The notes under the pieces: generated by a model
Databases searched by the model: none
Seen by the model: the letters and a program-made list of their open reading frames with translations, nothing else
What the model was told of the DNA's origin: nothing
Made by a program: the position numbers and the translations under genes
Source: a virus
Virus record (IMG/VR): IMGVR_UViG_3300042879_005897
Span: 1 to 25,226 of that record
Strand: one strand, 5' to 3'
Length of the DNA: 25,226 bases
Shown here: positions 1,409 through 10,775 of the stretch, piece after piece
How positions within the stretch are numbered: position 1 is the stretch's first letter
Layout: every line of letters starts with the position of its first letter

Positions 1409-1493
1409 TGGAGGTCTCAAAGAGATTTGCACTCTTCTATCACGAATACCAATCGTGTGCATCGCTTTCTATGCTTTGAGACCAAATGTGCTC
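1409..1493 (-). tRNA. tRNA-Thr(GGT), altered elbow (A18, G55)
   Basis: Perfect acceptor GGTCTCA/TGAGACC and encoded CCA. Anticodon stem CACGA/TCGTG holds loop TTGGTAT, giving GGT. The T-stem AAGAG/CTCTT closes loop TGCAAAT, so position 55 is G. The D-loop reads ATAGAA, with A18 G19 rather than GG. Confidence 0.88.
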
Positions 1494-1561
1494 CTTGCGA
1501 TTTTCAGGGTCACATGCACCGTCGCACATGGCTAGCTGTCGGGCGGAGCGATAGCTCGTTA

Positions 1562-1635
1562 TGGTAGGGAGTGAAGGTAACGCTCCTTCTTCTCTGGCGT
1601 GTCGAGCCAGTGTATTGCTTCTATACTAACTCCCC
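1562..1635 (-). tRNA. tRNA-Val(GAC), altered elbow and C33
   Basis: Acceptor GGGGAGT/ACTCCCT, discriminator A and CCA. The five-pair anticodon stem CTGGC/GCCAG holds loop TCGACAC, so the anticodon is GAC but position 33 is C instead of U. The T-loop is AGCGTTA (G55) under stem GAAGG/CCTTC, and the D-loop has TAGAA (A18). Its first 15 nt overlap the end of the upstream gene. Confidence 0.82.
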
Positions 1636-1902
1636 ATTTGTTGTAATTGTTTGTTTTGCATAAAGCGTATCATCCATAGTTACTTGCAATATGCGACTTG
1701 ACATATCCTCATCTATCTCCTTTTGTATTTCAAGAGAAACATGTTCTGTCATTGTTAGCAACGGTATGTAAGGGGCGTATACTATTCCTTGCCAATCCTT
1801 AAATGCTTTTGTTACTGTTTTAGTAGGTGTTGTCGAAATTGGTAAGAGAGGAGCGACTAATGCTCCTAGTGCGCTTTTGAAGAATGATCGTCTGTCAACC
1901 AT
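1621..1902 (-). CDS. Small protein with Tat-like N-terminus, 93 aa
   Basis: The protein begins MVDRRSFFKSALGALVAPLL, a near-ideal twin-arginine signal (RR-x-F-x-K followed by a hydrophobic stretch and a proline/serine region). The rest contains YAPYIPLL and is otherwise unrecognised. Such a signal would send a folded protein across the host inner membrane, but in a phage it could also be a structural N-terminus that only resembles one. The start overlaps the end of the upstream gene by 8 nt, which implies translational coupling. The stop codon lies inside the next tRNA, Val(GAC), with a 15-nt overlap. Confidence 0.72.
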   Translation of the reverse strand: MVDRRSFFKSALGALVAPLLPISTTPTKTVTKAFKDWQGIVYAPYIPLLTMTEHVSLEIQKEIDEDMSSRILQVTMDDTLYAKQTITTNGELV

Positions 1903-2392
1903 TGGCTTTGATGTTGAAATAATGATTTTTAGTCTTATCAGAAATGCCTGGATGTCTCATAAAGAAATCTACAACACTTTTAGGATCATATTTGCCTTTA
2001 CCACCATACATATTTCGCATCATGCGCAAAATAGCAACTTTGGTGAGTCTGTCTACTTTTGGAGGTGTGGTCAATGTAGCAATGAATGGATATATCCATC
2101 CCCAACCATTGGCCCAAAACTCCATGCTTTCTGTTACTAGACCATTGAGTGTAATTTCTTTGATGCGCTGACCATCAACAATGGGCTTTATGTATGTGAG
2201 TTCTTCAGAAGAAAGACCCTTGGATCCTCTTTCTTGATAGTGCTCAAAAGCACTGCGCCACTTTTCTGGATCGTAATCTTTAATTTCCTGCATATTGATA
2301 AAAGCAGGATTTTGTTTGAAATTACACCAAAAGAGAAAGTGATTCCAAACTCGATCTTTGCGAATTTTTTTTCTGCGTTGTTTAAGATTCAT
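1895..2392 (-). CDS. Hypothetical phage protein, 165 aa
   Basis: The frame starts 9 nt after the CCA of tRNA-Thr(TGT). The N-terminus is strongly basic (KQRRKKIRKDRVW), which suggests nucleic-acid contact or a virion role. The central part contains ESMEFWANGWGWIYPF and the C-terminal part a basic helix near RMMRNMYGGKGKYD. No signal peptide or clear membrane span is present. It overlaps the downstream Tat-like gene by 8 nt, so the two are likely co-translated. Family not recognised. Confidence 0.72.
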   Translation of the reverse strand: MNLKQRRKKIRKDRVWNHFLFWCNFKQNPAFINMQEIKDYDPEKWRSAFEHYQERGSKGLSSEELTYIKPIVDGQRIKEITLNGLVTESMEFWANGWGWIYPFIATLTTPPKVDRLTKVAILRMMRNMYGGKGKYDPKSVVDFFMRHPGISDKTKNHYFNIKANG

Positions 2393-2401
2393 AATATAAA
2401 A

Positions 2402-2477
2402 TGGAGGTCATAGTCGGATTTGAACCAACAACCTGCTGATTACAAATCAGCTGCTCTACCAGTTGAGCTATATGACC
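2402..2477 (-). tRNA. tRNA-Thr(TGT), canonical
   Basis: Acceptor GGTCATA/TATGACC with CCA. Anticodon stem GCTGA/TCAGC holds loop TTTGTAA, giving TGT. The D-loop has CTGGTAGAGC with GG and the T-loop is TTCAAAT, so the elbow is canonical. Confidence 0.93.
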
Positions 2478-2491
2478 ATAAGGTCTAAAAG

Positions 2492-2499
2492 ACTAAATA
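2492..2499 (+). promoter_or_regulatory. Late-promoter-like box ACTAAATA
   Basis: TAAATA at 2494-2499 is followed by exactly 5 nt and then the ATG of the small membrane gene. The same geometry recurs at seven other genes in the window. It resembles the T4 late box TATAAATA. Confidence 0.5.
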
Positions 2500-2504
2500 A
2501 TTAT

Positions 2505-2591
2505 ATGAACCTTCTTGAATTAATCAACACATTTTCAGGAATAATCGCCCTTGCGGTTCTTTTCATTGCCATTGCGAAAATTTTCCAATAG
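2505..2591 (+). CDS. 28-aa single-span membrane peptide
   Basis: ATG at 2505 to TAG at 2589 encodes MNLLELINTFSGIIALAVLF followed by IAIAKIFQ, almost entirely one hydrophobic helix from residue 10. A TAAATA-N5-ATG start signal precedes it. It lies in tandem with a second tiny hydrophobic frame 2-17 nt downstream, both opposite to the surrounding genes. Small phage membrane peptides often act in lysis or host-membrane modification, but no specific role can be assigned. Support comes from composition and the start signal rather than from a known family. Confidence 0.5.
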   Translation: MNLLELINTFSGIIALAVLFIAIAKIFQ

Positions 2592-2608
2592 CAGTGAATG
2601 CGATACTT

Positions 2609-2686
2609 ATGAGCACTTTACTTTTAATTTTTGGTCTATTTGGCGTTGCTCTTGGTCTATACCTCATGGCAACAGACATGTGTTAA
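2609..2686 (+). CDS. 25-aa single-span membrane peptide (alternative GTG start at 2594)
   Basis: ATG at 2609 gives MSTLLLIFGLFGVALGLYLM then ATDMC, a glycine-containing hydrophobic helix. A GTG at 2594, 2 nt after the previous stop, would add five residues (MNAIL). The stop overlaps the stop of the convergent 306-aa gene by 3 nt. The tandem arrangement suggests a pair of interacting membrane peptides, such as holin-like or spanin-like partners, but this is speculation. Confidence 0.42.
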   Translation: MSTLLLIFGLFGVALGLYLMATDMC

Positions 2687-3603
2687 CGTTGAATGCATTC
2701 ATACAATGCAATCAAATTTTTATCATCTGCATCAATGAAATGATCAACAGCAAGCTTGTAGCCATGTTGCTCCGAACCACCTTCAGGTGCACCACCTAAA
2801 TAATCAGCAGGTGAGTAATCAATGTTATTTTTTACTTGTAAATTTGCTTGTGAATTAGCCTTTTTTTGTTGGACTAGTTCTTTTTTTACAACTCTAATTG
2901 AATCTTTAATTACTCTATCAATAGAAGCTATTAATTCGTTGTCACCACGATACATTCCTTTGTCAGCCATATCCTTGGCAGAATACAAAATTTTATATTT
3001 GCTTGATTGCGGATTTATAGTATTGATGTCTCCATAATAGATATCTCCTGCAGGTATGTATTTAGGCTCTTTTAATGCATCCATTGCAATTTCAATAGGC
3101 TGCTGTACAAATTGGTCTATTGCATCTCTGTACCACTCGTCATCAGAATCATCAGAATCATCAGAATCATCAGAATCATCAGAACTACGAACTTGACGAT
3201 CTCCAAAATCATCTAGACCAGGATACATGCTTCCCATTCTTTTGACTACATCTTCTGGCATCATGCCAAGCAATTCTTCTTGCATATAATCTGCAAATGC
3301 ATCACCACCACCATTTGCATACGCAACTATCACTTTTGCCAAAGCATCATTTATTTTTAATCGGCCGGGCTGCTTTACAGCTTTTTGTGCTAATGCAGCT
3401 GCTTTTTCAGGCGATGTTAATTTAGAAAAAATATTTTTCCAAGCTGTTTCTGTAAATCTTTTTATATTAATTGATACACCCGCTAATCCATAACTATTAT
3501 GAGAAAATCTTTCATCTTGTGCCAAAGATACTATGGGTTTAGCAAAAGATGAAACCATGGTGCCAATCATTTTTTTGAGAATATCTCTACGTGTATCTTG
3601 CAT
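2683..3603 (-). CDS. 306-aa protein with twin-arginine-like start and Ser-Asp-Asp repeat
   Basis: The N-terminus MQDTRRDILKKMIGTMVSSF carries RR followed by a mildly hydrophobic stretch, similar in layout to the neighbouring 93-aa gene. Residues about 140-155 are five SDD units encoded by a 9-bp tandem repeat, an acidic flexible linker. Upstream of it are helical segments with KAAALAQKAVKQPGRLKI; the C-terminal part is charged and ends in ALYECIQR. TATAAATA lies 7 nt before the start. It is probably a virion-associated or exported protein of unknown role. Its stop overlaps the tiny convergent membrane gene. Confidence 0.78.
   Translation of the reverse strand: MQDTRRDILKKMIGTMVSSFAKPIVSLAQDERFSHNSYGLAGVSINIKRFTETAWKNIFSKLTSPEKAAALAQKAVKQPGRLKINDALAKVIVAYANGGGDAFADYMQEELLGMMPEDVVKRMGSMYPGLDDFGDRQVRSSDDSDDSDDSDDSDDEWYRDAIDQFVQQPIEIAMDALKEPKYIPAGDIYYGDINTINPQSSKYKILYSAKDMADKGMYRGDNELIASIDRVIKDSIRVVKKELVQQKKANSQANLQVKNNIDYSPADYLGGAPEGGSEQHGYKLAVDHFIDADDKNLIALYECIQR
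3141..3185 (-). repeat. Five 9-bp tandem repeats (CATCAGAAT)
   Basis: Five consecutive in-frame copies of a 9-bp unit, the last differing by one base, encode the Ser-Asp-Asp linker of the 306-aa protein. Copy number changes would keep the frame and alter only linker length. Confidence 0.95.
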
Positions 3604-3610
3604 ATGCTAT

Positions 3611-3618
3611 TATTTATA
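3611..3618 (-). promoter_or_regulatory. T4-like late promoter TATAAATA
   Basis: An exact TATAAATA on the minus strand ends 7 nt before the ATG at 3603. No Shine-Dalgarno is visible between box and start. Confidence 0.6.
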
Positions 3619-3637
3619 TCTGCGCTGTAAAAATATC

Positions 3638-3717
3638 GAGACAAACAACACGTGTGCATTCAAACACACCTGCCGACAACTGGAGTTCAACCTATAAACT
3701 TCGATGTTGCTTGTCTC
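3638..3717 (-). ncRNA. Tentative structured RNA closed by a 13-bp stem
   Basis: GAGACAA-N-CAACA at 3638-3650 pairs with TGTTG-N-TTGTCTC at 3705-3717, with one G-U on the minus strand, closing an 80-nt domain. A second stem GTGTG/CACAC with an 8-nt loop TTTGAATG sits where a T-arm would be. There is no CCA and no anticodon arm, so it is a tRNA-like or unrelated structured RNA between two genes. Confidence 0.4.
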
Positions 3718-3756
3718 AGTTAGATGTTAACTAAGGTTTCGAACTCTTGTTTGCAT

Positions 3757-3975
3757 CTATTCCGGAATTTTTGAAACTTCTAAAAATTGTTTCGCAAGAT
3801 GTTTATTTTCAAGCAATGATTTTGTAACAGCCATTATCCATTCACCATTAGCTGTTTCCCTAAAGCTTAATTCTTGCTTGCCTGGTGTATCAACTATGAT
3901 AACTCTTTTAAGCGTGATGTTTTTGCTAGTTTCATCACTAAAATTAATTTTTAAGATTGCGTTTTCCTTTTTCAT
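3757..3975 (-). CDS. Hypothetical phage protein, 72 aa
   Basis: It starts MKKENAILKINFSDETSKNI and shows alternating beta-type segments (LKINF, LKRVIIVD) followed by a C-terminal helix (SLLENKHLAKQFLEVSK). It overlaps the upstream 73-aa gene by ATGA, the standard translational-coupling junction, so the pair forms a small operon directly after tRNA-His. Not recognised. Confidence 0.68.
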   Translation of the reverse strand: MKKENAILKINFSDETSKNITLKRVIIVDTPGKQELSFRETANGEWIMAVTKSLLENKHLAKQFLEVSKIPE

Positions 3976-4193
3976 AAATCTTCTGCATGATGTACATTAT
4001 ATACATTGAACTCAAAAATGGTCCAATTGAATAATCTTAAGCTGATATCTGCTTTTGGACAATGATCACCATCATACCAATCAATGTCGCTTTTGAATTC
4101 AAACAATGACAAGCCATCATTCAATGATCGATGCTTGTGAAACATTGTAAATTCCCATGCATAGTCTTCGTTTATTTTGTTGTGTAATGTCAT
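3972..4193 (-). CDS. Hypothetical phage protein, 73 aa
   Basis: It starts 11 nt after the CCA of tRNA-His. The product MTLHNKINEDYAWEFTMFHK is rich in aromatic and histidine residues (WYDGDHC, YNVHHAEDL), a composition sometimes linked to metal binding, but no motif is complete. It is coupled by ATGA to the 72-aa gene. Not recognised. Confidence 0.65.
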   Translation of the reverse strand: MTLHNKINEDYAWEFTMFHKHRSLNDGLSLFEFKSDIDWYDGDHCPKADISLRLFNWTIFEFNVYNVHHAEDL

Positions 4194-4204
4194 ATATTTA
4201 GAAT

Positions 4205-4279
4205 TGGGCTCTCTACTGAGAATCGAACTCAGTTAAGACGCCCCACAAACGTCGGCCTTACCAATAGGCTATAGAGAGC
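4205..4279 (-). tRNA. tRNA-His(GTG) with encoded G-1
   Basis: The acceptor CTCTCTA/TAGAGAG is extended by G-1 pairing with C73, the hallmark of histidine tRNA. Anticodon stem GACGT/GCGTC holds loop TTGTGGG, giving GTG. The D-loop has TTGGTA and the T-loop TTCGATT, both canonical. Confidence 0.94.
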
Positions 4280-4287
4280 ATTTAAAA

Positions 4288-4364
4288 TGGTACCCTTGAC
4301 AGGACTCGAACCTGCATCGGTACAGAGTAGAAATCTGTTGCCTGATCCATTAGACTACAAGGGC
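4288..4364 (-). tRNA. tRNA-Arg(TCT), canonical
   Basis: Acceptor GCCCTTG/CAAGGGT with CCA. Anticodon stem ACAGA/TCTGT holds TTTCTAC, giving TCT. D-loop AATGGAT has GG and the T-loop is TTCGAGT. Confidence 0.94.
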
Positions 4365-4373
4365 ATTTAAAAT

Positions 4374-4448
4374 TGGAGGCCATTATGGGAGTTGAACCCA
4401 TCTACAGAGTTTTGCAGACTCCTGTCCACGCCAGCTGACTCAATGGCC
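4374..4448 (-). tRNA. tRNA-Cys(GCA), canonical
   Basis: Perfect acceptor GGCCATT/AATGGCC. Anticodon stem GGAGT/ACTCT holds CTGCAAA, giving GCA. The D-loop has GG, and the T-stem ATGGG/CCCAT closes TTCAACT. Confidence 0.93.
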
Positions 4449-4462
4449 TTTTAAAAATTGTT

Positions 4463-4600
4463 GGCACTCTACTGAGTAGCTAATTCAGTGAGTGCCCCAG
4501 ATATCATTCAATGAGATTGTGCAAGCGCTCTCATCCCAGAGCCGTTAGAGGCTCATGGCTTGCAAGAGCGGCCTCTAAAGTTGCGGATGGTTGAATATCT
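4463..4600 (-). ncRNA. Hairpin plus about 100-nt structured RNA between tRNAs
   Basis: The first part (4463-4496) is a hairpin GGCACTC-T-ACTGA / TCAGT-GAGTGCC with one bulge. The second part is closed by AGATAT (4499-4504) with ATATCT (4595-4600) and TCAA/TTGA inside. Within it are GCAAGC/GCTTGC (4521-4526, 4558-4563) and GAGCC/GGCTC (4539-4543, 4550-4554). The array linkers flank it on both sides. No anticodon or T-loop is recognisable. It is likely a stable RNA of unknown function. Confidence 0.45.
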
Positions 4601-4607
4601 CTGAAAT

Positions 4608-4682
4608 TGGTGGAGCGTAAGGGATTCGAACCCTTTCTTCAACCGTGCAAGGATCATGTGCTACCATTATCACTAACGCCCC
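4608..4682 (-). tRNA. tRNA-Ala(TGC), canonical
   Basis: Acceptor GGGGCGT/ACGCTCC with CCA. Anticodon stem TGATC/GGTTG with wobble pairs holds CTTGCAC, giving TGC. D-loop AATGGTAGC and T-loop TTCGAAT are canonical. Confidence 0.92.
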
Positions 4683-4688
4683 ATAAAA

Positions 4689-4764
4689 TGGTACCCGAGG
4701 ACGGGATCGAACCGCCGGCCTTATCCGTGTAAAGGATCTGCTACTACCGCTGAGCTACTCGGGC
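4689..4764 (-). tRNA. tRNA-Val(TAC), canonical
   Basis: Acceptor GCCCGAG/CTCGGGT with CCA. Anticodon loop TTTACAC on stem ATCC/GGAT gives TAC. D-loop has CGGTAG and T-loop is TTCGATC. Confidence 0.92.
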
Positions 4765-4771
4765 AACTTAC

Positions 4772-4966
4772 TTACTCTGAAACTTTTTGTTCTTTGCGAG
4801 CATTCTTTTCTGCTGTAATCTCGTTACGACGAGATTTTGCAAGTACAATAATATCTTGCAAACGCTTGCGTGCATTTGTACTTGCAGATAATTTACCGTT
4901 GTTGAACTTTTCGTCTTCAACAGCAAATGCTTCTAATAATTCTTTTAATTGTTCGTATGTTGTCAT
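4772..4966 (-). CDS. Histone Hc1-like small basic protein, 64 aa
   Basis: The sequence MTTYEQLKELLEAFAVEDEK followed by FNNGKLSASTNARKRLQDII and KSRRNEI matches the layout of the short Hc1-like proteins common in phages and some bacteria: an acidic first helix, a short N-G-K turn, a second helix with an ARKRLQ core and a basic third part. The family binds DNA non-specifically and is related to chlamydial histone Hc1. It probably coats or compacts DNA or acts on the host nucleoid. Assignment is from recall of the sequence pattern, not a search. It sits between tRNA-Val and tRNA-Met in the array. Confidence 0.6.
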   Translation of the reverse strand: MTTYEQLKELLEAFAVEDEKFNNGKLSASTNARKRLQDIIVLAKSRRNEITAEKNARKEQKVSE

Positions 4967-5010
4967 ATTCTATATATTAGATTATTAATTTACTTTATCA
5001 ACTTAAAATT

Positions 5011-5085
5011 TGGTTGCAGGCCGGGATTCGCACCACGCTCTCCAGCTTATGAGACTGGAATGGTCACTAGACCACCTACCCGCAA
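5011..5085 (-). tRNA. tRNA-Met-type (CAT), altered elbow, weak T-stem
   Basis: Anticodon stem CCAGT/GCTGG holds CTCATAA, giving CAT. The 5' TTGCGGG pairs with CCTGCAA just before the CCA, so the discriminator register is unclear. The T-loop is TGCGAAT (G55) with two mismatches in its stem, and the D-loop has CTAGT (A18). It could be initiator, elongator or a lysidine-modified Ile. Confidence 0.7.
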
Positions 5086-5093
5086 TTTAAAAA

Positions 5094-5169
5094 TGGCACA
5101 CGAGCTTGGGATCGAACCAAGTTCAATAGGGTAACAACCTACCGGCCCAACCGTGGTGCCTTCTCGTGT
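5094..5169 (-). tRNA. tRNA-Asn(GTT), canonical
   Basis: Acceptor ACACGAG/CTCGTGT, discriminator G as expected for Asn, CCA. Anticodon stem GTAGG/CCTAT holds TTGTTAC, giving GTT. T-loop TTCGATC, and the D-loop has GG. Confidence 0.9.
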
Positions 5170-5181
5170 ATCTATGAATCT

Positions 5182-5209
5182 ATTATAATGTATTTCCTAT
5201 AATGTTCAA
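5182..5209 (-). promoter_or_regulatory. Sigma70-like promoter driving the tRNA-Asn end of the array
   Basis: On the minus strand TTGAAC (5204-5209) and TATAAT (5182-5187) are spaced 16 nt, with transcription into tRNA-Asn. The stretch AGGAAATAC directly upstream of the -10 recurs at 7704-7720, so it may be part of a phage promoter class. Confidence 0.6.
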
Positions 5210-5218
5210 CTTAAAAAT

Positions 5219-5294
5219 TGGTACTCCTGATAGGACTTGCACCTACACTGAATGCGCCCTTAACGCATTGCCTCTACTATTGGGCTACAGGAGC
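5219..5294 (-). tRNA. tRNA with anticodon AAG, class I, altered elbow; identity uncertain
   Basis: Acceptor GCTCCTG/CAGGAGT with CCA. The perfect stem ATGCG/CGCAT holds TTAAGGG, so the anticodon reads AAG (Leu codon CTT). The variable loop is only about 5 nt, unlike leucine tRNAs. T-loop TGCAAGT (G55) and D-loop AATAGTAGA (A18). Confidence 0.78.
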
Positions 5295-5303
5295 ATTTGA
5301 AAT

Positions 5304-5388
5304 TGGTCCTTCTGGCAGGAATTGAACCTGCGTCTGAACCTTATCAAGATTCTGCTAAAACCACTCAGCTACAGAAGGTTTGAAATTG
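5304..5388 (-). tRNA. tRNA-Ile(GAT), canonical elbow
   Basis: Acceptor CCTTCTG/CAGAAGG, discriminator A, CCA. Anticodon stem GAATC/GGTTC holds TTGATAA, giving GAT. The D-loop has GTGGTT and the T-loop is TTCAATT. Confidence 0.86.
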
Positions 5389-5396
5389 GAAGCGGA

Positions 5397-5465
5397 CCAG
5401 TGAATCGAACACTGCTTGCAGGCTTATGAGGCGAGCTAGACCACCAGGCCTTTTTTCCATCCGCA
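5397..5465 (-). tRNA. Degenerate tRNA-Met-like (CAT), possible pseudo-tRNA
   Basis: Only 69 nt long. The anticodon loop CTCATAA gives CAT but its stem has two internal mismatches. The T-arm CAGTG/CACTG with TTCGATT is good. The region before the D-arm holds an A-run, and position 1:72 appears to be a T-T mismatch. It may be a decayed copy of the Met tRNA at 5011, with which it shares GGTGGTCTAG. Confidence 0.5.
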
Positions 5466-5510
5466 TCTTGAAATTGTTTGTTAGCTGCCTACGCTTTATT
5501 TCATTATAGG

Positions 5511-5518
5511 CATAAATA
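5511..5518 (+). promoter_or_regulatory. Late-promoter-like box CATAAATA
   Basis: CATAAATA is followed by exactly 5 nt (CTTAT) and the ATG at 5524. No Shine-Dalgarno lies between. Confidence 0.6.
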
Positions 5519-5523
5519 CTTAT

Positions 5524-6252
5524 ATGAACTGTTTAAATTGTGAAACTGAATTAAAAATTGGGCAAAAGAAATTTTGCGGTCTTTCTTGTGCTGCAAAACA
5601 TCGCAATAAAAATCAAAATTGGGATGAAGTGTGGACTGAAGAAAAACGAAAAGCTGCTGCTGAAAAAACAAAAGCTAATAAAAAAGGATTTTTAGCTAAT
5701 CCAAAACTTTTTGGAGCAAAGGGTGGCAAAAGGAACTTAAACACTACTAGAGAGCTTATAAGAATTGAACTTGTGTGCCATCAATGCTCAAACAAATTCA
5801 GCGTTTTTCCATACCAAAAGTCACGTAAATACTGCTCACGTACTTGTTCAAATCTTAACAACTATCACCCCAACTCTACTAAAGTTCATCGCAAGATTTA
5901 CAAAAATATTCAATTTGATTCTGGTGCAGAAGTAGCCTTCGCTAAACTGTTAGATGAGCATAAAATTGAATGGCTCAAAAACAAATCTATTTTCTTTACA
6001 TTTACATCCTACGATGGTAAAGCCTGTAAATACTACCCAGATTTTTTTCTCCCTAAGTACAACTGGTGGGTTGAAATTAAAGGCAAACGCTTCGTTAGAA
6101 TTGACGATGATTTAAGGTTAGCTGCTGTTGGTAACATTGAAAGAATGTATTCAACACAGTTAAAATTACCTGCGCCATATTTGGCAGAGCTAACGGGAAT
6201 TGAACCCGTGTCTTCGATTCGACAGACCGACGTAATAACCACTATACCATAG
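5524..6252 (+). CDS. PD-(D/E)XK homing-type endonuclease with Cys zinc motifs, 242 aa
   Basis: Residues 3-6 and 18-22 (CLNC, CGLSC) form a first Cys4 zinc motif and CHQC with CSRTC (about 85-110) a second. The catalytic core follows: a helix with SGAEVAFAKLLDEHKIEW, then YYPDFFLP and WWVEIKG, matching the E / PD / ExK pattern of PD-(D/E)XK nucleases. Homing endonucleases of this fold are known beside cyanophage genes. It lies opposite to the array. The C-terminus after about residue 220 is read from the antisense strand of tRNA-Asp, so the natural end may have been lost or altered on insertion. A late-promoter box precedes the start. Confidence 0.82.
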   Translation: MNCLNCETELKIGQKKFCGLSCAAKHRNKNQNWDEVWTEEKRKAAAEKTKANKKGFLANPKLFGAKGGKRNLNTTRELIRIELVCHQCSNKFSVFPYQKSRKYCSRTCSNLNNYHPNSTKVHRKIYKNIQFDSGAEVAFAKLLDEHKIEWLKNKSIFFTFTSYDGKACKYYPDFFLPKYNWWVEIKGKRFVRIDDDLRLAAVGNIERMYSTQLKLPAPYLAELTGIEPVSSIRQTDVITTIP

Positions 6253-6773: not shown

Positions 6774-6780
6774 TTGAAAT

Positions 6781-6858
6781 TGGCACCCTCACCCGGCGCT
6801 GCCCCGGGTACTTCGCAGTGAAAGTGCGATGTTATAACTGATCGTTAACTACAAGGGC
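6781..6858 (-). tRNA. tRNA-Glu(TTC), second copy, altered elbow
   Basis: Acceptor GCCCTTG/TGAGGGT with wobble pairs; discriminator G. Anticodon stem TCGCA/TGCGA holds CTTTCAC, giving TTC. T-loop GGCAGCG (G55 C56) on CCCGG/CCGGG; D-loop has TCAGTT (A18 G19). Its first 14 nt contain the stop codon of the endonuclease gene. Confidence 0.83.
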
Positions 6859-7654
6859 TACTAAAGTTTTGTTTTCTTCTATATTTACCAGCACAAATTC
6901 TACTACAAAATTTTGTTGTAGTTTTTGCTACTTTATCGGTACTAAAATTGGATCTACAATTATCGCAAATATAATTATATTTTGGTTTATATGAATCATA
7001 TAAAGTTAATATTTTTGCTTTGTCTTTTATTCCGTATTTTTCATTTATCCATTTAAATTGTTCTTGTAAATCCTGCTTATATAATACTTTTATAGTATAT
7101 CCTAGTTCCCTAGCTAAGGCAACTTTTTTATCAACTAAAGGTGTATGATAGCCTTTAATTTCTATTATTGTGTTGTTTTCTATTAAAAAGTCGGGGAAGT
7201 ATTTTAACTCTTCATTTTTAATATAACCGTCAAATCTTTGAAATGGTAAATTTTTATCAATTCTATAAATCACCCATGCAAGCTCATAAGTTGAACCACA
7301 GAATATTCCTTTATAATAACCAGACTTAGATCTTCCTGAACCTTGCCTATATCCACCCATTCCGTGTTGTTTAGCATTTTTAGAAAGATATTCATTAGAA
7401 CATTGTTTACTGCATACTTTTTGATTTTTTCTAGATGATCTTAAAATCATTTCACATTTACAAATTAAACATTTTTTTGTAAAAAATCCTTTATGTCTTG
7501 ATTTATTTTCAAGTTGCACAGCTATACTTTGCTTTGCTGCAATTGATTTTTTATTTTTATCTTCTTCTGTCCATATTCTAGAATTTGCACAAGATCTGCT
7601 ACAAAAATTACCATTATTATTGTGTTCTATATTACATTTTTTGCAATACTTCAT
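6845..7654 (-). CDS. PD-(D/E)XK homing-type endonuclease with three Cys zinc motifs, 269 aa
   Basis: Three Cys4-type motifs are visible: CKKC with CSRSC (residues 4-22), CLIC with CSKQC (about 62-85), and CDNC with CSRIC near the C-terminus. The nuclease core has YKGIFCGSTYELAWVIY, then KYFPDF and TIIEIKGY, matching E / PD / ExK. The helix after it (KKVALARELGYTIKVLYKQD) fits the fold. It is related in design to the plus-strand endonuclease at 5524 but diverged. It starts with AATAAATA-N5-ATG and stops inside tRNA-Glu, the same strand. Such genes spread by cutting unoccupied tRNA clusters and being copied in. Confidence 0.85.
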   Translation of the reverse strand: MKYCKKCNIEHNNNGNFCSRSCANSRIWTEEDKNKKSIAAKQSIAVQLENKSRHKGFFTKKCLICKCEMILRSSRKNQKVCSKQCSNEYLSKNAKQHGMGGYRQGSGRSKSGYYKGIFCGSTYELAWVIYRIDKNLPFQRFDGYIKNEELKYFPDFLIENNTIIEIKGYHTPLVDKKVALARELGYTIKVLYKQDLQEQFKWINEKYGIKDKAKILTLYDSYKPKYNYICDNCRSNFSTDKVAKTTTKFCSRICAGKYRRKQNFSSPCS

Positions 7655-7659
7655 GCATA

Positions 7660-7667
7660 TATTTATT
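7660..7667 (-). promoter_or_regulatory. Late-promoter-like box AATAAATA
   Basis: On the minus strand AATAAATA is followed by exactly 5 nt (TATGC) and the ATG at 7654. Confidence 0.55.
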
Positions 7668-7703
7668 CGAACTCACTAATTTTGTTTGATTAAATTACTC
7701 CTT

Positions 7704-7720
7704 TATTATATCGTATTTCC
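7704..7720 (-). promoter_or_regulatory. Promoter element GGAAATAC-N2-TATAATA
   Basis: The minus-strand sequence GGAAATACGATATAATA nearly repeats that at 5182-5203. A clear -35 is absent because the region is the CCA end of the upstream tRNA. It could start a transcript reading into the endonuclease gene. Confidence 0.4.
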
Positions 7721-7726
7721 TTAATT

Positions 7727-7801
7727 TGGTTGCTCCCGTGGGTATTGCCCCCACTTAGCACCGCTTATGAAGCGGTCCGAGATCCTTACCTCCCGAGAGC
7801 A
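7727..7801 (-). tRNA. tRNA-Met-type (CAT), altered elbow
   Basis: Acceptor TGCTCTC/GGGAGCA, discriminator A, CCA. Anticodon stem ACCGC/GCGGT holds TTCATAA, giving CAT. T-stem GTGGG/CCCAC closes GGCAATA (G54, G55). The D-loop GTAAGGAT is compatible with A18 G19. Confidence 0.85.
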
Positions 7802-7811
7802 TTTTGAAAAT

Positions 7812-7885
7812 TGGTAGCCCATGAGGGTAATGCTCCCCCTTATTCTGCTTCAAAGGCAGCTACATTACTTTTATGTTAATGGGCA
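7812..7885 (-). tRNA. tRNA-Gln(TTG), altered elbow
   Basis: Pairs 2-7 GCCCAT/ATGGGC are good and pair 1:72 is T-T. Anticodon loop CTTTGAA on CTGC/GCAG gives TTG. T-stem GGGGG/CCCTC closes AGCATTA (A54, G55, T58). D-stem ACAT/ATGT has loop AAAAGTA (A18 G19). Confidence 0.85.
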
Positions 7886-7907
7886 ATCTAAATGTTGTGG
7901 TTTATGT

Positions 7908-7982
7908 TGGTAGCTCCCCAGAGATTCGAACTCTGACTAGAAGGACCAAAACCTTCTGTGCTAGCCGTTACACCAAAGAGCT
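7908..7982 (-). tRNA. tRNA-Gln(TTG), canonical elbow
   Basis: Acceptor AGCTCTT/GGGAGCT with CCA. Anticodon stem GAAGG/CCTTC holds TTTTGGT, giving TTG. The D-loop has AACGGCTAGC (GG) and the T-loop is TTCGAAT. It is a same-anticodon partner of the altered Gln at 7812. Confidence 0.9.
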
Positions 7983-7993
7983 ATTGAAATTGT

Positions 7994-8077
7994 TGGAAGC
8001 TAGCTGGAAAGCGTTCGTTTAGCTTTCTTGCACAAGTAACACTTCTCCGCAGAGCGTCCACCTCAGCTAATACTTCC
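7994..8077 (-). ncRNA. Structured RNA in a tRNA-sized slot
   Basis: GGAAG (7995-7999) pairs with CTTCC (8073-8077), and GAAAGC (8007-8012) pairs with GCTTTC (8022-8027) around a 9-nt loop. Its minus-strand D-like part reads TTAGCTGAGGTGGACGCT. It resembles a tRNA with enlarged loops, but no acceptable anticodon arm is found. The usual linkers flank it. Confidence 0.42.
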
Positions 8078-8082
8078 TTAAA

Positions 8083-8157
8083 TGGAGGCCTATGAGTGAT
8101 TTGCGCACTCCTCTTCCGACTACAAAACGGATACGTCGCTGTCTACGCTTATGGGCC
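8083..8157 (-). tRNA. tRNA-Thr(TGT), second copy, altered elbow
   Basis: Acceptor GGCCCAT/ATAGGCC has one C-A mismatch. Anticodon loop TTTGTAG on TCCG/CGGA gives TGT. T-stem GAGTG/CACTC closes CGCAAAT (G55). The D-loop has TAGACAG, consistent with A18 G19. Its first 9 nt carry the stop of the upstream gene. Confidence 0.8.
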
Positions 8158-8400
8158 ATTTACTTGAATTATAACGAATGAATCAATGATTTCAACTGCA
8201 TCTTTGTCATCAGGATGTGCTGTATAGAATTTACCTGTTGTATAGAATTTACCTGTTGTAGAAGAAAGCATTCTAAAATCTTGATAAATGTATTTGAGTC
8301 CAATTTCTTCTTCATTAAGAACTTTGAATTCTTTTGTACCTCCATCGAGATACGATCCTTTATATTTGAGAATTGCTTTTTTTGGATATGGATAGTTCAT
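8149..8400 (-). CDS. Hypothetical phage protein with internal duplication, 83 aa
   Basis: The start chosen is ATG at 8400 (MNYPYPKKAILKYKGSYLDG), 9 nt after the CCA of tRNA-Lys; a longer frame would run into that tRNA. It contains a short tandem duplication, TTGKFY twice, from an 18-bp direct repeat near 8222-8257. The protein looks beta-rich with no signal or membrane part. The stop TAA is inside the next tRNA, Thr(TGT). Not recognised. Confidence 0.65.
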   Translation of the reverse strand: MNYPYPKKAILKYKGSYLDGGTKEFKVLNEEEIGLKYIYQDFRMLSSTTGKFYTTGKFYTAHPDDKDAVEIIDSFVIIQVNGP

Positions 8401-8409
8401 TTTTAAATT

Positions 8410-8488
8410 TGGTGCTTCAGGTGGTAGTTGCAACCACACGAATATTCTGGTTAAGAGCCAGCTGCCCGTCTACTGTAGCTTCTGAAGC
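8410..8488 (-). tRNA. tRNA-Lys(CTT), altered elbow
   Basis: Perfect acceptor GCTTCAG/CTGAAGC, discriminator A, CCA. Anticodon loop CTCTTAA on CTGG/CCAG gives CTT. T-stem GTGGT/ACCAC closes TGCAACT (G55). D-loop ACAGTAGA has A18 G19. Confidence 0.88.
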
Positions 8489-8498
8489 ATGTTGAAAT

Positions 8499-8575
8499 TG
8501 GCATCCGGCGTCAGAATTGAACTGACCCACGAGAATTTGGAGTTCTCATCGCCTAGCCTTGGAACATGGCCGGAT
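8499..8575 (-). tRNA. tRNA-Trp(CCA), canonical
   Basis: Acceptor ATCCGGC/GCCGGAT, discriminator G as expected, CCA. Anticodon stem GAGAA/TTCTC holds CTCCAAA, giving CCA. T-stem GTCAG/CTGAC closes TTCAATT. D-loop has AAGGCTA. Confidence 0.92.
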
Positions 8576-8578
8576 ATA

Positions 8579-8654
8579 TGGTACCCTATGGAGGAATTAA
8601 ACCCACCACCTCTCAGTTCGTAGCCGAGTGTTCTGTCCGTTATACTAATAGGGC
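8579..8654 (-). tRNA. tRNA-Arg(ACG) with T56 and A19
   Basis: Acceptor GCCCTAT/ATAGGGT. Anticodon stem CTCGG/CTGAG holds CTACGAA, giving ACG. The T-loop is TTTAATT, so position 56 is T instead of C, and the D-loop AACGGACAGA aligns with G18 A19, giving an A19-T56 pair in place of G19-C56. Confidence 0.88.
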
Positions 8655-8663
8655 ATTTGAAAT

Positions 8664-8748
8664 TGGTACCGTGGGAGAGATTCGAACCCTCAAGGATCAC
8701 TCGTTCTAAGCGAGGGAGTTCTGCCAATTTCCTCTTATCCACCACGGC
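8664..8748 (-). tRNA. tRNA-Leu(TAG), canonical elbow
   Basis: Acceptor GCCGTGG/CCACGGT with CCA. Anticodon stem CTCG/CGAG holds CTTAGAA, giving TAG. Class II D-arm with AAATTGGCAGA and T-loop TTCGAAT. Confidence 0.92.
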
Positions 8749-8760
8749 ATTTAAAATTAA

Positions 8761-8847
8761 TTACAAGTCATCGATTACCCACGACGATTAGGCTTTATTT
8801 CTTAAACAGGCTGATGGCTTTCAGCTTCAATAAAGACATACTTGTAA
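8761..8847 (-). ncRNA. Structured RNA closed by perfect 8-bp stem
   Basis: TTACAAGT (8761-8768) is perfectly complementary to ACTTGTAA (8840-8847). Inside, CTTTATT (8793-8799) pairs with AATAAAG (8829-8835), GCTGA (8810-8814) with TCAGC (8821-8825), and ATCG/CGAT forms a small arm near 8770-8788. The domain is 87 nt, flanked by array linkers, with no tRNA features. The nested stems make chance unlikely, and T4 RNAs C and D are precedents for unknown stable RNAs in tRNA arrays. Confidence 0.52.
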
Positions 8848-8850
8848 AAT

Positions 8851-8934
8851 TGGTAGCTCTGGAGGGAATTGCACCCTCAAGGATCATCGGTTTTAAGCCG
8901 AGCCATTCTGCTGTTTCTGGTTATCCACAGAGCC
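8851..8934 (-). tRNA. tRNA-Leu(TAA), altered elbow
   Basis: Acceptor GGCTCTG/CAGAGCT with CCA. Anticodon loop CTTAAAA on TCGG/CCGA gives TAA. T-stem GAGGG/CCCTC closes TGCAATT (G55). The D-loop has AAACAGCAGA where Leu(TAG) has AAATTGGCAGA, so G18 is replaced by A18. Confidence 0.92.
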
Positions 8935-8937
8935 ATT

Positions 8938-9022
8938 TGGTAGCCTCGGAGGGAGTTGCACCCTCAAGGATCATCGCTTTTGAGGCGAGCCGTTCTGCTG
9001 GTTTCCGGTTATCCACAAGGCC
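8938..9022 (-). tRNA. tRNA-Leu(CAA), altered elbow
   Basis: Acceptor GGCCTTG/CGAGGCT with CCA. Anticodon loop CTCAAAA on TCGC/GCGA gives CAA. T-loop TGCAACT (G55) and D-loop with ACCAGCAGA (A18 G19). It is a close paralogue of Leu(TAA). Confidence 0.92.
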
Positions 9023-9031
9023 ATTTGAAAT

Positions 9032-9117
9032 TGGTGCAGGCGATGGGACTCGAACCCACATAGTGATTACTCACACGGATTAAAAGTCCGTTGGTCAACC
9101 AATTGACCCACACCTGC
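9032..9117 (-). tRNA. tRNA-Lys(TTT) with class II-like variable arm
   Basis: Acceptor GCAGGTG/CGCCTGC. Anticodon stem ACGGA/TCCGT holds CTTTTAA, giving TTT. D-loop AATTGGTT and T-loop TTCGAGT are canonical. The variable region is 15 nt and folds as GTGA-GTAA-TCAC, a four-pair hairpin with a GNRA-type loop, which lysine tRNAs normally lack. Confidence 0.9.
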
Positions 9118-9125
9118 ATTGAAAT

Positions 9126-9201
9126 TGGTACTCCAGGTAGGACTTGCACCTACAACCTATCGCTAATCGGGCGACCGCTCTTCTGATTGAGCTACTGGAT
9201 C
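9126..9201 (-). tRNA. tRNA-Ile(GAT), altered elbow and C33
   Basis: Acceptor GATCCAG/CTGGAGT has one A-G mismatch. Anticodon loop CCGATTA on TCGC/GCGA gives GAT with C at position 33. T-stem GTAGG/CCTAC closes TGCAAGT (G55); D-loop AATCAGAAGA has A18 G19. The 3' end of the upstream small gene runs 39 nt into it. Confidence 0.83.
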
Positions 9202-9357
9202 ATTTGAAATTTGGTTTTTCCATTCTTCTTGCGATTCAATTAATATTGCTGTTTTGAGCTTTATTTCTGTCTTTCCACTCAATGATTTAGAGTCTGTATA
9301 ATCTAATACCTTACTCCACTTTTCAAGCAAATGTTTTGCACGTTCTTGTGTTATCAT
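9163..9357 (-). CDS. 64-aa protein whose end lies inside tRNA-Ile
   Basis: The ATG at 9357 lies 4 nt after the CCA of tRNA-Asn(GTT), with no room for a ribosome site. MITQERAKHLLEKWSKVLDY and the following charged helix look like a real soluble protein up to about residue 47 (EEWKNQ). The last 17 residues are translated from the linker and the first 39 nt of tRNA-Ile, ending at a TAG there. The gene therefore seems to use array sequence as its tail. Function unknown. Confidence 0.55.
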   Translation of the reverse strand: MITQERAKHLLEKWSKVLDYTDSKSLSGKTEIKLKTAILIESQEEWKNQISNDPVAQSEERSPD

Positions 9358-9361
9358 AAAT

Positions 9362-9450
9362 TGGCTCCCCCTCGACGTTACGATCGTCGCTGTACCTTAT
9401 AAGGGCCTCCTGGTTAACAGCCAAGCGCTCTACCACTGAGCTAAGGGGGA
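9362..9450 (-). tRNA. tRNA-Asn(GTT), long variable region and ATC T-loop
   Basis: Acceptor TCCCCCT/AGGGGGA, discriminator G, CCA. Anticodon stem CTTGG/CCAGG holds CTGTTAA, giving GTT. The D-arm GCTCAGTGGTAGAGC is canonical. The T-loop is ATCGTAA, with A54-T58 but T55 kept. The variable region is 19 nt and contains CCTTATAAGG. Confidence 0.88.
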
Positions 9451-9459
9451 TTTTGAAAT

Positions 9460-9536
9460 TGGTCGGGTGAGTGGGTAACGCTCCCACATTTACTCAGCTC
9501 CAAACCGAGTTCGTTTACTTGTCCAGACACCACCCG
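9460..9536 (-). tRNA. tRNA-Pro(TGG), altered elbow
   Basis: Acceptor CGGGTGG/TCACCCG begins with the C1-G72 pair typical of Pro. Anticodon stem CTCGG/CTGAG holds TTTGGAG, giving TGG. T-stem GTGGG/CCCAC closes AGCGTTA (A54, G55, T58). D-loop has CAAGTAAA (A18 G19). Confidence 0.87.
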
Positions 9537-9545
9537 AATTAAAAA

Positions 9546-9639
9546 TGGCGGATCCAGTAGGATTTGAACCTACGCAGCCTTTTTAGGGGCTGGCAACTCT
9601 TTAGCAAAGAGACACATTACCAGACTCTGTCATGGATCC
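9546..9639 (-). tRNA. tRNA-Ser(GCT), class II, canonical
   Basis: Perfect acceptor GGATCCA/TGGATCC, discriminator G. Anticodon loop TTGCTAA on CTCT/AGAG gives GCT. It has a long variable arm as expected for Ser, D-loop with CTGGTA, and T-loop TTCAAAT. Confidence 0.93.
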
Positions 9640-9645
9640 TTGAAT

Positions 9646-9719
9646 TGGTGCGCCATGTGAGAATCTAACTCACACTCCCGGATTGGAAGACCGGCGTGCT
9701 GACATAACACTTATGACGC
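9646..9719 (-). tRNA. tRNA-Gly(TCC) with T19 and A56
   Basis: Acceptor GCGTCAT/ATGGCGC. Anticodon stem CCGGT/TCCGG holds CTTCCAA, giving TCC. T-stem GTGAG/CTCAC closes TTAGATT, so position 56 is A. The D-loop TATGTCA aligns as G18 T19, so 19-56 becomes T-A instead of G-C. Confidence 0.9.
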
Positions 9720-9728
9720 TTTTGAAAA

Positions 9729-9810
9729 TTTGCGAGATGATCGCGAGGTTTTATCCGAAACGCCACATCATCAGTCTTTCGGCCGCACACCAGCATTTCT
9801 GCTTCGCAAA
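9729..9810 (-). ncRNA. Structured RNA closed by 7-bp stem
   Basis: TTTGCGA (9729-9735) pairs with TCGCAAA (9804-9810). The next helix GATGAT (9736-9741) pairs with ATCATC (9767-9772), and GCA/TGC closes a small hairpin near 9793-9802. It is a three-way-junction-like domain of 82 nt between array linkers, with no recognisable tRNA parts. Confidence 0.5.
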
Positions 9811-9812
9811 AT

Positions 9813-9888
9813 TGGTCGCCCATGCAGGACTTGCACCTGCGAATACTTGTTCCCAAAACAAGTGCGATAACTACTCCGCCAATGGACG
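9813..9888 (-). tRNA. tRNA-Pro(TGG), second copy, altered elbow
   Basis: Acceptor CGTCCAT/ATGGGCG with C1-G72. Anticodon stem CTTGT/ACAAG holds TTTGGGA, giving TGG. T-stem GCAGG/CCTGC closes TGCAAGT (G55). D-loop has GTAGTTA (A18 G19). Confidence 0.89.
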
Positions 9889-9898
9889 TTTGAAATTG

Positions 9899-9992
9899 TT
9901 AAGGCAGATGAGTTTTTTCCACTATCTGTGCACAGATACTCAATATTGGCACCCATTTCTCATCATAATTGGCTATTGATCAGCCGCCTTAA
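9899..9992 (-). ncRNA. Structured RNA closed by 7-bp stem with palindromic arm
   Basis: TTAAGGC (9899-9905) pairs with GCCTTAA (9986-9992). GATGAG (9907-9912) pairs with CTCATC (9959-9964) and encloses the perfect palindrome ATCTGTGCACAGAT (9924-9937). GGCT/AGCC (9971-9985) makes a third arm. The whole fits between two array linkers and is not a tRNA. Confidence 0.52.
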
Positions 9993-9994
9993 AT

Positions 9995-10066
9995 TGGTGC
10001 AGCGTTTTCATTCAGGTGTCTGCGATCTGAGAGGACTTGAGTTTAACCTGCGGTCCTTAGACGCAG
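9995..10066 (-). ncRNA. Possible structured RNA or decayed tRNA ending in CCA
   Basis: The slot begins with the usual TGG (CCA on the minus strand). CTGCG (10020-10024) pairs with CGCAG (10062-10066) and AGGAC (10032-10036) with GTCCT (10053-10057). No acceptor stem can be formed with the CCA end, so it is not called as a tRNA. Confidence 0.3.
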
Positions 10067-10072
10067 TTAAAT

Positions 10073-10146
10073 TGGAGCGTTATATGGGATTCGAACCCAT
10101 TCGATAACCTTGGCAAGGTCATATGCAGCCATCACATCCATAACGC
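10073..10146 (-). tRNA. tRNA-Gly(GCC), canonical
   Basis: Acceptor GCGTTAT/ATAACGC with CCA. Anticodon stem TGACC/GGTTA holds TTGCCAA, giving GCC. D-loop with GATGGCT and T-loop TTCGAAT. Confidence 0.92.
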
Positions 10147-10154
10147 ATAAAATA

Positions 10155-10352
10155 TTTGATAAGCTAGTCACTACTCTAGCTAGAAGCTGCAGGTACTGTT
10201 ACGTTCTGCGCCATGGTTGTGAAACCATTACTTGCGTCACACCGCTTTAACTCTTCGGTCAACAGAACACTACTCACAAGTAACTTTTACGTGATTGTTC
10301 TTGCTTTCTTGCCCTATTATTTTCCTGCGTGTCCATCCACGCCGTTATCAAA
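10155..10352 (-). ncRNA. About 200-nt structured RNA closed by perfect 8-bp stem
   Basis: TTTGATAA (10155-10162) pairs with TTATCAAA (10345-10352). Inner helices include ATGGTT/AACCAT, GTTCTG/CAGAAC, GTTAC/GTAAC, ACCG/CGGT and GCGTG/CACGC. The plus-strand frame through it has no coding features. It could be two fused elements or an intron-like RNA, but no group I core was recognised. Confidence 0.45.
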
Positions 10353-10354
10353 AA

Positions 10355-10446
10355 TGGAGGAAGAAGTGAGATTCGAACTCACGGAGGTTTTTAGGCCTCA
10401 ACGCATTTCAAGTGCGCCGCCTTCAGCCAGACTCAGCCATTCTTCC
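10355..10446 (-). tRNA. tRNA-Ser(TGA), class II, canonical
   Basis: Perfect acceptor GGAAGAA/TTCTTCC with CCA. Anticodon stem GCGCA/TGCGT holds CTTGAAA, giving TGA. Long variable arm, D-loop with CTGGCTGA, T-stem GTGAG/CTCAC closing TTCGAAT. Confidence 0.94.
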
Positions 10447-10614
10447 ATAAACTATTCCGTGATTATCGGGCTCACGGAAAAAGAAGCCATACCATTACCA
10501 TGAGGTAATAGGTGCTACCCTTTTCGATACTAGCGGTATAACTAGTCTGTTCTTGTTGGTTAGCGTTTTAAGAACAACACAGCGCGTTGCTCCCAACTTG
10601 AAACTGGTGGGCCC
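10447..10614 (-). other. Hairpin-rich gap in the array
   Basis: No gene or foldable tRNA. Perfect hairpins are TTCCGTGA/TCACGGAA (about 10455-10479), TTACC/GGTAA (about 10496-10509), ACTAG/CTAGT (about 10530-10548) and GTTCTT/AAGAAC (about 10551-10577). It probably carries one or more structured RNAs. Confidence 0.35.
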
Positions 10615-10705
10615 TAGTGGTAACGCACCACATGCCAACTTCCCATCTTATTAATGGCAACGGATTTACAGTCCATCGACGGGGTCAGGTCCCTTAAACT
10701 GGCCC
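10615..10705 (-). tRNA. tRNA-Tyr(GTA), class II, altered T-loop; 5' end overlaps tRNA-Phe
   Basis: Anticodon loop CTGTAAA gives GTA and a long variable arm (GCCA/TGGC) fits Tyr. T-loop TGCGTTA on GTGG/CCAC has G55. With CCA at 10615 the acceptor GGGCC/GGCCC has five good pairs and two mismatches, and its 5' end overlaps the CCA of tRNA-Phe by about 6 nt. The D-arm is irregular. Confidence 0.75.
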
Positions 10706-10775
10706 ACCAACTTGGTTATGCTCCAAGCTCTAGCGGGTTTCAACCGCTCGCTTTCTCTAGATTAGCTTTTGGTGG
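10700..10775 (-). tRNA. tRNA-Phe(GAA), altered elbow
   Basis: Perfect acceptor CCACCAA/TTGGTGG, discriminator G, CCA. Anticodon stem AGCGG/CCGCT holds TTGAAAC, giving GAA. T-stem CTTGG/CCAAG closes AGCATAA (A54, G55, T58). D-loop has CTAGAGA (A18 G19). Confidence 0.9.

Follow-up and report, generated by a model that had tools for sequence, protein, structure and literature searches.

The contact between G18 of the D-loop and pseudouridine 55 (Psi55) of the T-loop is taught as a universal tertiary interaction of transfer RNA (tRNA), and Psi55 itself as a near-universal modification. An altered T-loop and a D-loop lacking GG are known from the staphylococcal cell-wall tRNA-Gly, a single isotype with a non-translational role. 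Among long tRNA arrays, the Anabaena trn operon is induced by translational stress, the only case in which such induction is known, and has the repressor TrcR in common with rtcB (PMC10272220). In Salmonella, broken tRNAs switch on the rsr-rtcBA operon (PMC7790460). The array described here occupies positions 1409–10775 of a 25,226-base IMG/VR virus fragment (IMGVR_UViG_3300042879_005897, the whole of which is called the window below) and contains, beside canonical tRNAs, a second class carrying A18 and G55 at the elbow.

Coupling of positions 18 and 55

Thirty-nine tRNA genes were identified in the window, all on the minus strand and 37 of them inside the array: 32 by a structure scan of our own, which sets no base requirement at positions 18, 19 or 55 and counts genes with an encoded CCA, and seven by visual inspection of the sequence. 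The 37 clustered genes lie within 9.4 kb, which matches the supernumerary-array criterion of mobile long tRNA arrays (trn/L-arrays), and clusters in Nostoc and Verrucomicrobiota loci are comparably tight. G55 is present in 17 of the 39 tRNAs (all listed in Table 1) and U55 in 22. A18-G19 was found in all 16 G55 tRNAs with a readable D-loop, while G18 is present in every one of the 22 U55 tRNAs (Fisher p = 4.5e-11; 4.5e-10 with tRNA-Tyr scored as a miss).

These results agree with an earlier note on this DNA, which had counted about 17 array tRNAs with G55 and an intact C56, had proposed that G55 goes with A18 (16/16 versus 0/22 when positions 18 and 55 were tabulated), and had regarded the remaining tRNAs as canonical at the elbow. 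The T-loops that it quoted (TGCAAGT, AGCATAA, GGCAATA and CGCAAAT) were all recovered, as was its contrast between a canonical tRNA-Leu(TAG) and an A18/G55 tRNA-Leu(TAA).

The same pairing was sought in other genomes and was found in phage and bacterial loci. A T-arm pattern combining G55 with the spacer CCAATTT matched at least 119 IMG/VR stretches. Loci were collected from viral sequences by the G55 pattern, from viral sequences by the U55 pattern and from bacterial sequences by the G55 pattern. Among the unique unambiguous sequences of 357 viral and bacterial loci, A18 accompanied G55/C56 in 678 of 683 cases (the other 5 having G18), and G18 accompanied U55/C56 in 1,236 of 1,240 (the other 4 having A18). 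D-loop dinucleotides in these sequences were located by one set rule, and AGG loops, being compatible with both readings, were excluded. The A18-G55 pairing is general across viral and bacterial loci. In viral loci selected by the canonical U55 pattern, G55 was present in 18 of 99 loci and 38 of 906 tRNAs (~4%); the class is therefore a minority, yet not a rare one. A direct switch was observed between the Met(CAT) genes of loci L169 and L200, which differ at seven sites that include both elbow bases.

Nineteen apparent G18-G19/G55 exceptions were inspected, and 18 of them contain AGG, compatible with A18-G19-G20. Five true G18-G55 cases are left in the larger set, one of them an initiator Met gene of locus L135. 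A smaller class of C55 tRNAs with G18 (T-loop TCCGATT; L011, L012, L054, L096 and L111, and Ile and Val genes in L392–L425) represents a third 18-55 state. No G55 tRNAs were detected by our scanner in the scanned parts of the huge phages LR756501 and LR756511, and Erwinia phage ChrisDB has canonical tRNAs throughout. Caulobacter phage CcrColossus has one unannotated Phe(GAA) with A18/G55 at 68452–68526, a marginal case with a weak T-stem. A literature search, beyond the reach of which lay older D/T-loop selection work, returned no earlier account of A18/G55 tRNAs.

Position 19 tracks position 56 in both classes, as G19-C56, A19-U56, U19-A56 or C19-G56. U55U56 loops were accompanied by G18A19 in 31 of 32 cases (background 18.7%, p = 7e-22), G55A56 loops by A18U19 in 12 of 19 (background 15.9%, p = 4e-6) and G55G56 loops by A18C19 in 7 of 13 (background 11.4%, p = 2e-4). 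Two such variants that the earlier note had not recorded occur in the window itself, in Gly(TCC) and in the Met gene at 24016. R57 is kept in every case. U54 is present in 183 of 302 G55 tRNAs and in 416 of 438 U55 tRNAs (absent in 119/302 versus 22/438); the 54-58 pair is mostly U-A, with A-U, G-G and C-A frequent among G55 tRNAs.

Taken from sequence, these genes probably encode real, translation-competent tRNAs in which an A18-G55 elbow pair replaces G18-Psi55 and position 19 still pairs with 56. In the normal pair, N1H and N2H of G18 would donate to O4 of Psi55. In the replacement, N1 of A18 would accept from, and its N6H donate to, the Watson-Crick edge of G55, and a GNR turn formed by G55-C56-R57 would take the place of the UNR U-turn. 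This arrangement would explain the near absence of G18-G55 and A18-U55; like edges (G-G, A-U) would clash, in keeping with their rarity. Since an A18/G55 tRNA cannot carry Psi55 or Gm18, its elbow would be independent of TruB and TrmH.

Structural integrity, isotype identity and probable use in translation

G55 tRNAs of the window were compared with their orthologues in related phage contigs (L017, L098, L093, L284, L026 and L022). Across 18 G55 orthologue pairs, 48 stem pairs had changed, with 27 double compensatory changes, 15 one-sided changes that remain paired and 2 broken pairs. The class was retained in 16 of the 18; the other two both involve one Glu(TTC) gene, for which two relatives have a canonical version. 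Identity elements agree with the anticodon: G55 tRNAs for Ala have A73 and G3-U70 in 29/29 genes (no other G55 isotype has G3-U70 in more than one gene), those for Cys have U73 in 38/38, for Asp G73 in 33/33 and for Leu A73 in 52/52, and a long variable arm is present in 26/26 Ser and 26/26 Tyr genes. All 20 amino acids are covered. G55 tRNAs have the cloverleaf, the compensatory structure and the anticodon-matched identity of the tRNA family (RF00005) and lack its G18-U(Psi)55 elbow pair; because the other defining features are present, the A18-G55 class is a variant within that family.

The class is poorly recovered by a common annotation tool. ARAGORN reported 23 tRNAs in the window, whereas a genome search with the Rfam tRNA model (RF00005) placed 26 window genes, G55 members included, above the 29-bit cut-off. 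On viral genes ARAGORN found 1,417 of 1,437 U55 tRNAs (98.6%) and 209 of 426 G55 tRNAs (49%), and in the window it found 2 of the 13 G55 genes in this comparison. The class is therefore under-annotated, and tRNA counts for phages and tRNA arrays are too low, with about half of the G55 genes on viral contigs missed.

Some Patescibacteria have A18/G55 genes as the only copy found. The genome G015 (Staskawiczbacteria, a single contig of 661,750 bp read whole) has 43 tRNAs, among which the sole Cys, the sole Tyr, one of two Met and Thr(GGT) are A18/G55. This contig is complete-looking, and A18/G55 genes are used as the only Cys and Tyr tRNAs found there. Of 145 Patescibacteria, two (G015 and G118) match an A18/G55-type Tyr pattern, and neither has the canonical Tyr pattern matched by 74 others. 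In each of G012, G013 and G019, BLAST identified just one initiator gene, which belongs to the A18/G55 class. With no second gene detected for these isotypes, A18/G55 tRNAs must serve translation in these bacteria, to the extent that the assemblies are complete. The only-copy tRNAs of G015 also argue against weak EF-Tu binding or non-use in translation, as judged from gene content.

Genomic settings and possible purpose

G55 tRNAs occur in phage arrays, in Nostoc arrays, in near-pure Verrucomicrobiota arrays and as single core genes of bacteria. The Verrucomicrobiota arrays are almost wholly A18/G55 (21 G55 to 0 U55 in L158, 24 to 0 in L229). RtcB and/or TROVE/Rsr (Ro60) is encoded in the same 8 kb in 12 of 27 near-pure G55 loci versus 3 of 68 other bacterial loci (Fisher p = 8e-6), and the repair-gene neighbours in L229 were confirmed by Pfam. 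Genome-wide, TROVE is present in 12 of the 27 array genomes, with G55 tRNAs within ~1.5 kb of it in 9 of the 12, and RtcB is present somewhere in 26 of 27. A 267-amino-acid protein lacking a Pfam match recurs beside Rsr and G55 arrays in Verrucomicrobiota (L229:6778–7581 on the minus strand, L220 and L231). Nostoc arrays resembling the Anabaena trn operon, including one on plasmid NC_019677 of Nostoc PCC 7524, have conserved A18/G55 genes for Ile(GAT), Met(CAT) and Glu(CTC). Absence of TruB from the host was considered as a cause and rejected: PF01509 was present in 9/9 array-bearing bacterial genomes tested, so that loss of the Psi55 enzyme does not account for the class.

The RtcB/Rsr neighbourhood suggests spare tRNA sets for damaged or under-modified housekeeping tRNAs. 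A modification-independent elbow would suit such supernumerary sets, whether in phage arrays, in stress-induced cyanobacterial arrays or in arrays beside RtcB/Rsr. One possible reason, put forward tentatively, is that spare sets must function at once when modification enzymes or housekeeping tRNAs run short or suffer damage. A spare-set role is favoured by the array context (phage, Nostoc, RtcB/Rsr), which does not decide between avoidance of modification and escape from damage.

Several observations weigh against this account. The canonical elbow is retained in 22 tRNAs of this window, which means that not every spare tRNA can need modification independence. The RtcB/Rsr link was seen in Verrucomicrobiota; among viral loci RtcB was found in L063 only, and no RtcB/Rsr neighbour was found in the window. 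A G55 tRNA lies within ~1.5 kb of the fetched RtcB copies in only 3 of 26 genomes, and Rsr is thus the more frequent close neighbour of the tRNA block. The 18-55 counts tally sequences instead of independent events, from loci picked by their G55 or U55 pattern, and "only copy" in G012, G013, G015 and G019 refers to the assemblies as they stand.

Decay, in which phage arrays collect defective tRNAs and the elbow changes arose by drift, would account for the slightly lower conservation of T8, T33 and A14 in G55 tRNAs (76, 89 and 80%) than in U55 tRNAs (89, 96 and 86%), and for ARAGORN missing most G55 genes of the window. The near-perfect 18-55 coupling, the compensatory stem changes, the retained identity elements and the only-copy use in Patescibacteria make this explanation extremely improbable; on sequence comparison, the compensatory changes and the only-copy use contradict it already. 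The earlier note's view of a coordinated replacement under selection is upheld by the same coupling, by the 27 compensatory against 2 broken pairs and by the kept identity elements. Its likening of the class to staphylococcal tRNA-Gly is not supported, and neither is a mainly non-translational role. RNAs of that type, or Ro60-bound mimics resembling Y RNAs, would be in keeping with the Rsr adjacency in 9 Verrucomicrobiota genomes, and Y RNAs are known tRNA mimics. Such a role is nevertheless very unlikely for a class that covers all 20 isotypes with matching identity elements and an encoded CCA, keeps G19-C56 and is, in some Patescibacteria, the sole source found of a Cys, Tyr or initiator gene.

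More weight attaches to two further explanations. Under evasion, host toxins, defence nucleases or colicin-like killers that recognise the ordinary elbow would fail to detect a tRNA whose elbow is changed. Phages, mobile arrays and RtcB/Rsr neighbourhoods are all settings of tRNA damage, the rsr-rtcBA operon responds to broken tRNAs (PMC7790460), and one repressor governs the Anabaena trn operon and rtcB (PMC10272220). Canonical tRNAs share the same array, however, A18/G55 tRNAs are also single genes in the core genomes of tiny bacteria, and no elbow-reading nuclease was identified in this analysis. Known phage escape from tRNA attack works through the anticodon loop, and evasion is judged unlikely. 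Under neutral alternation, A18-G55 is an equally good pair that arises by rare paired mutations and spreads with mobile arrays, giving no specific advantage. The occurrence of nearly every isotype in both classes, their mixture within one array, the switch between close relatives and the variation of 19-56 pairs all fit this explanation, which is doubtful but slightly more plausible than evasion. Near-pure Verrucomicrobiota G55 arrays beside repair genes would be unexpected under a purely neutral switch, as would the low share of G55 among tRNAs of canonical-pattern viral loci. The placement of A18/G55 tRNAs in spare sets is most likely explained by modification independence or by insensitivity to agents recognising the normal elbow, with neutral alternation as a serious rival. 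A still broader proposal, that bacteria and phages share a second, modification-independent elbow class whose spare sets act together with RtcB and Ro60 to rescue translation in emergencies, a system also adopted by phages and mobile arrays, is speculative and rather doubtful as a whole.

A natural replacement with near-perfect covariation would mean at least two working elbow chemistries. The purpose of Psi55 could be tested directly on natural pairs with few differing sites, such as L169/L200, and A18/G55 tRNAs offer modification-free scaffolds for engineering. Given their RtcB/Rsr neighbours, spare tRNA sets may belong to RNA-damage responses.

Other features of the window and comparison with known systems

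Coordinates are collected in Table 1. The complete transfer-messenger RNA (tmRNA) gene has an encoded CCA and a canonical T-loop, and its stretch matches related phage contigs L017 and L098 at ~80% by blastn. tRNAs with Leu anticodons (AAG, TAG, CAA, GAG) and a short variable arm, found in the window and in L160, L192, L200 and L214, are frequent in phage and mobile arrays, whereas bacterial Leu tRNAs have a long arm; three window tRNAs of normally short-arm isotypes have long extra arms. Between the tRNAs lie elements that look structured, several with a CAATTT-type spacer at their end; they gave no tRNA fold in our scan and are possibly small RNAs or very degenerate tRNAs. Of the three within-array proteins, two are zinc-finger-like with no Pfam match and one is HNH/DUF968-like; they are perhaps homing endonucleases, and an HNH gene also adjoins the Nostoc PCC 7524 array (L357).

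Table 1 Features of the window, with elbow bases and T-loop sequences of the tRNAs.
Feature	Positions	Strand	Basis and remarks
tRNA-Ile(TAT), long extra arm	191–283		
tRNA-Thr(GGT), A18-G19/G55-C56, TGCAAAT	1409–1483	-	Structure scan; Rfam tRNA 47.9 bits; missed by ARAGORN
tRNA-Val(GAC), A18/G55, AGCGTTA	1562–1635	-	Structure scan, Rfam; missed by ARAGORN
tRNA-Thr(TGT), canonical G18/U55	2402–2477	-	ARAGORN, Rfam, structure scan
Inter-tRNA elements	4450–4606, 7988–8082, 9895–9995, 9988–10072, 10148–10352		
tRNA-Met(CAT), A18/G55, TGCGAAT, imperfect T-stem	5009–5084	-	Read from sequence; ARAGORN
tRNA with Leu anticodon AAG, short variable arm, A18/G55, TGCAAGT	5219–5294	-	ARAGORN, Rfam, structure scan; class kept in L017 and L093 orthologues
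tRNA-Ile(GAT), canonical	5304–5378		
Within-array protein	5524–6252	+	
tRNA-Glu(TTC), A18/G55, AGCATAA	6266–6339	-	Rfam, structure scan; orthologues in L017, L093
tRNA-Glu(TTC), A18/G55, GGCAGCG	6781–6858	-	Structure scan; L017 and L093 orthologue canonical (lineage switch)
Within-array protein	6845–7654	-	
tRNA-Met(CAT), A18-G19-G20/G55, GGCAATA	7727–7801	-	Structure scan; orthologues in L017, L093
tRNA-Gln(TTG), A18/G55, AGCATTA	7812–7885	-	Rfam, structure scan, orthologue comparison
tRNA-Gln(TTG), canonical, second copy of that anticodon	7908–7982	-	ARAGORN, structure scan
tRNA-Thr(TGT), A18/G55, CGCAAAT	8083–8157	-	Structure scan, orthologue comparison
tRNA-Lys(CTT), A18/G55, TGCAACT	8410–8488	-	Structure scan, orthologue comparison
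tRNA-Leu(TAG), canonical, TTCGAAT, long arm	8664–8748	-	Structure scan, read from sequence
tRNA-Leu(TAA), A18/G55, TGCAATT, long arm	8851–8934	-	Structure scan, read from sequence; genome search 31.3 bits
tRNA-Leu(CAA), A18/G55, TGCAACT, long arm	8938–9022	-	Read from sequence
tRNA-Lys(TTT), long extra arm	9032–9117		
tRNA-Ile(GAT), A18/G55, TGCAAGT	9126–9201	-	Rfam, structure scan, orthologue comparison
tRNA-Asn(GTT), long extra arm	9362–9450		
tRNA-Pro(TGG), A18/G55, AGCGTTA	9460–9536	-	Structure scan, orthologue comparison
tRNA-Gly(TCC), G18-U19/U55-A56 (19-56 covariation)	9646–9719	-	Structure scan
tRNA-Pro(TGG), A18/G55, TGCAAGT	9813–9888	-	ARAGORN, Rfam, structure scan, orthologue comparison
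tRNA-Tyr(GTA), G55, TGCGTTA, D-arm unreadable	10611–10703	-	Read from sequence; gene overlapping or adjoining the tRNA-Phe CCA, or else with its D-arm nearly absent
tRNA-Phe(GAA), A18/G55, AGCATAA	10700–10775	-	Structure scan
Within-array protein	10855–11427	-	
tmRNA	13361–13802	-	Rfam tmRNA 120 bits
HSP20 small heat-shock protein	13807–14274	-	Pfam E 3.5e-18
tRNA-Met(CAT), G18-A19/U55-U56 (19-56 covariation)	24016–24090	-	ARAGORN, structure scan

With the canonical bacterial tRNA (RF00005) the G55 class shares the cloverleaf and stems, R57, G53-C61, a Watson-Crick 19-56 pair, CCA and identity elements; it differs in having A-G at 18-55, where Psi55 and Gm18 are impossible, and a freer 54-58 pair (U-A, A-U, G-G, C-A). 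Selections of suppressor tRNAs with randomised D- and T-loops by the Steinberg group reportedly yielded active clones in which G54-A58 or G54-G58 substituted for U54-A58, and both combinations occur naturally here (GGCAATA and GGCAGCG). Staphylococcal tRNA-Gly likewise has an altered T-loop and a GG-less D-loop, but it is confined to Gly, whereas the G55 class spans all isotypes, keeps G19-C56 and probably has only-copy translational use. Compared with the Y-RNA/YrlA mimics of Ro60 operons, which have a tRNA-like domain but lack a complete charging set, the genes beside Rsr form full cloverleaves with CCA and identity elements. The rsr-yrlBA-rtcBA operon (PMC7790460) has in common with the Verrucomicrobiota G55 arrays the RtcB and TROVE/Rsr proteins, but in Verrucomicrobiota a tRNA set adjoins these genes, and the window is without such a neighbour. 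The Anabaena/Nostoc trn operon is likewise a long supernumerary array with many tRNAs bearing an encoded CCA; its tRNAs are mostly canonical, and the T-loop goes unmentioned in its description (PMC10272220).

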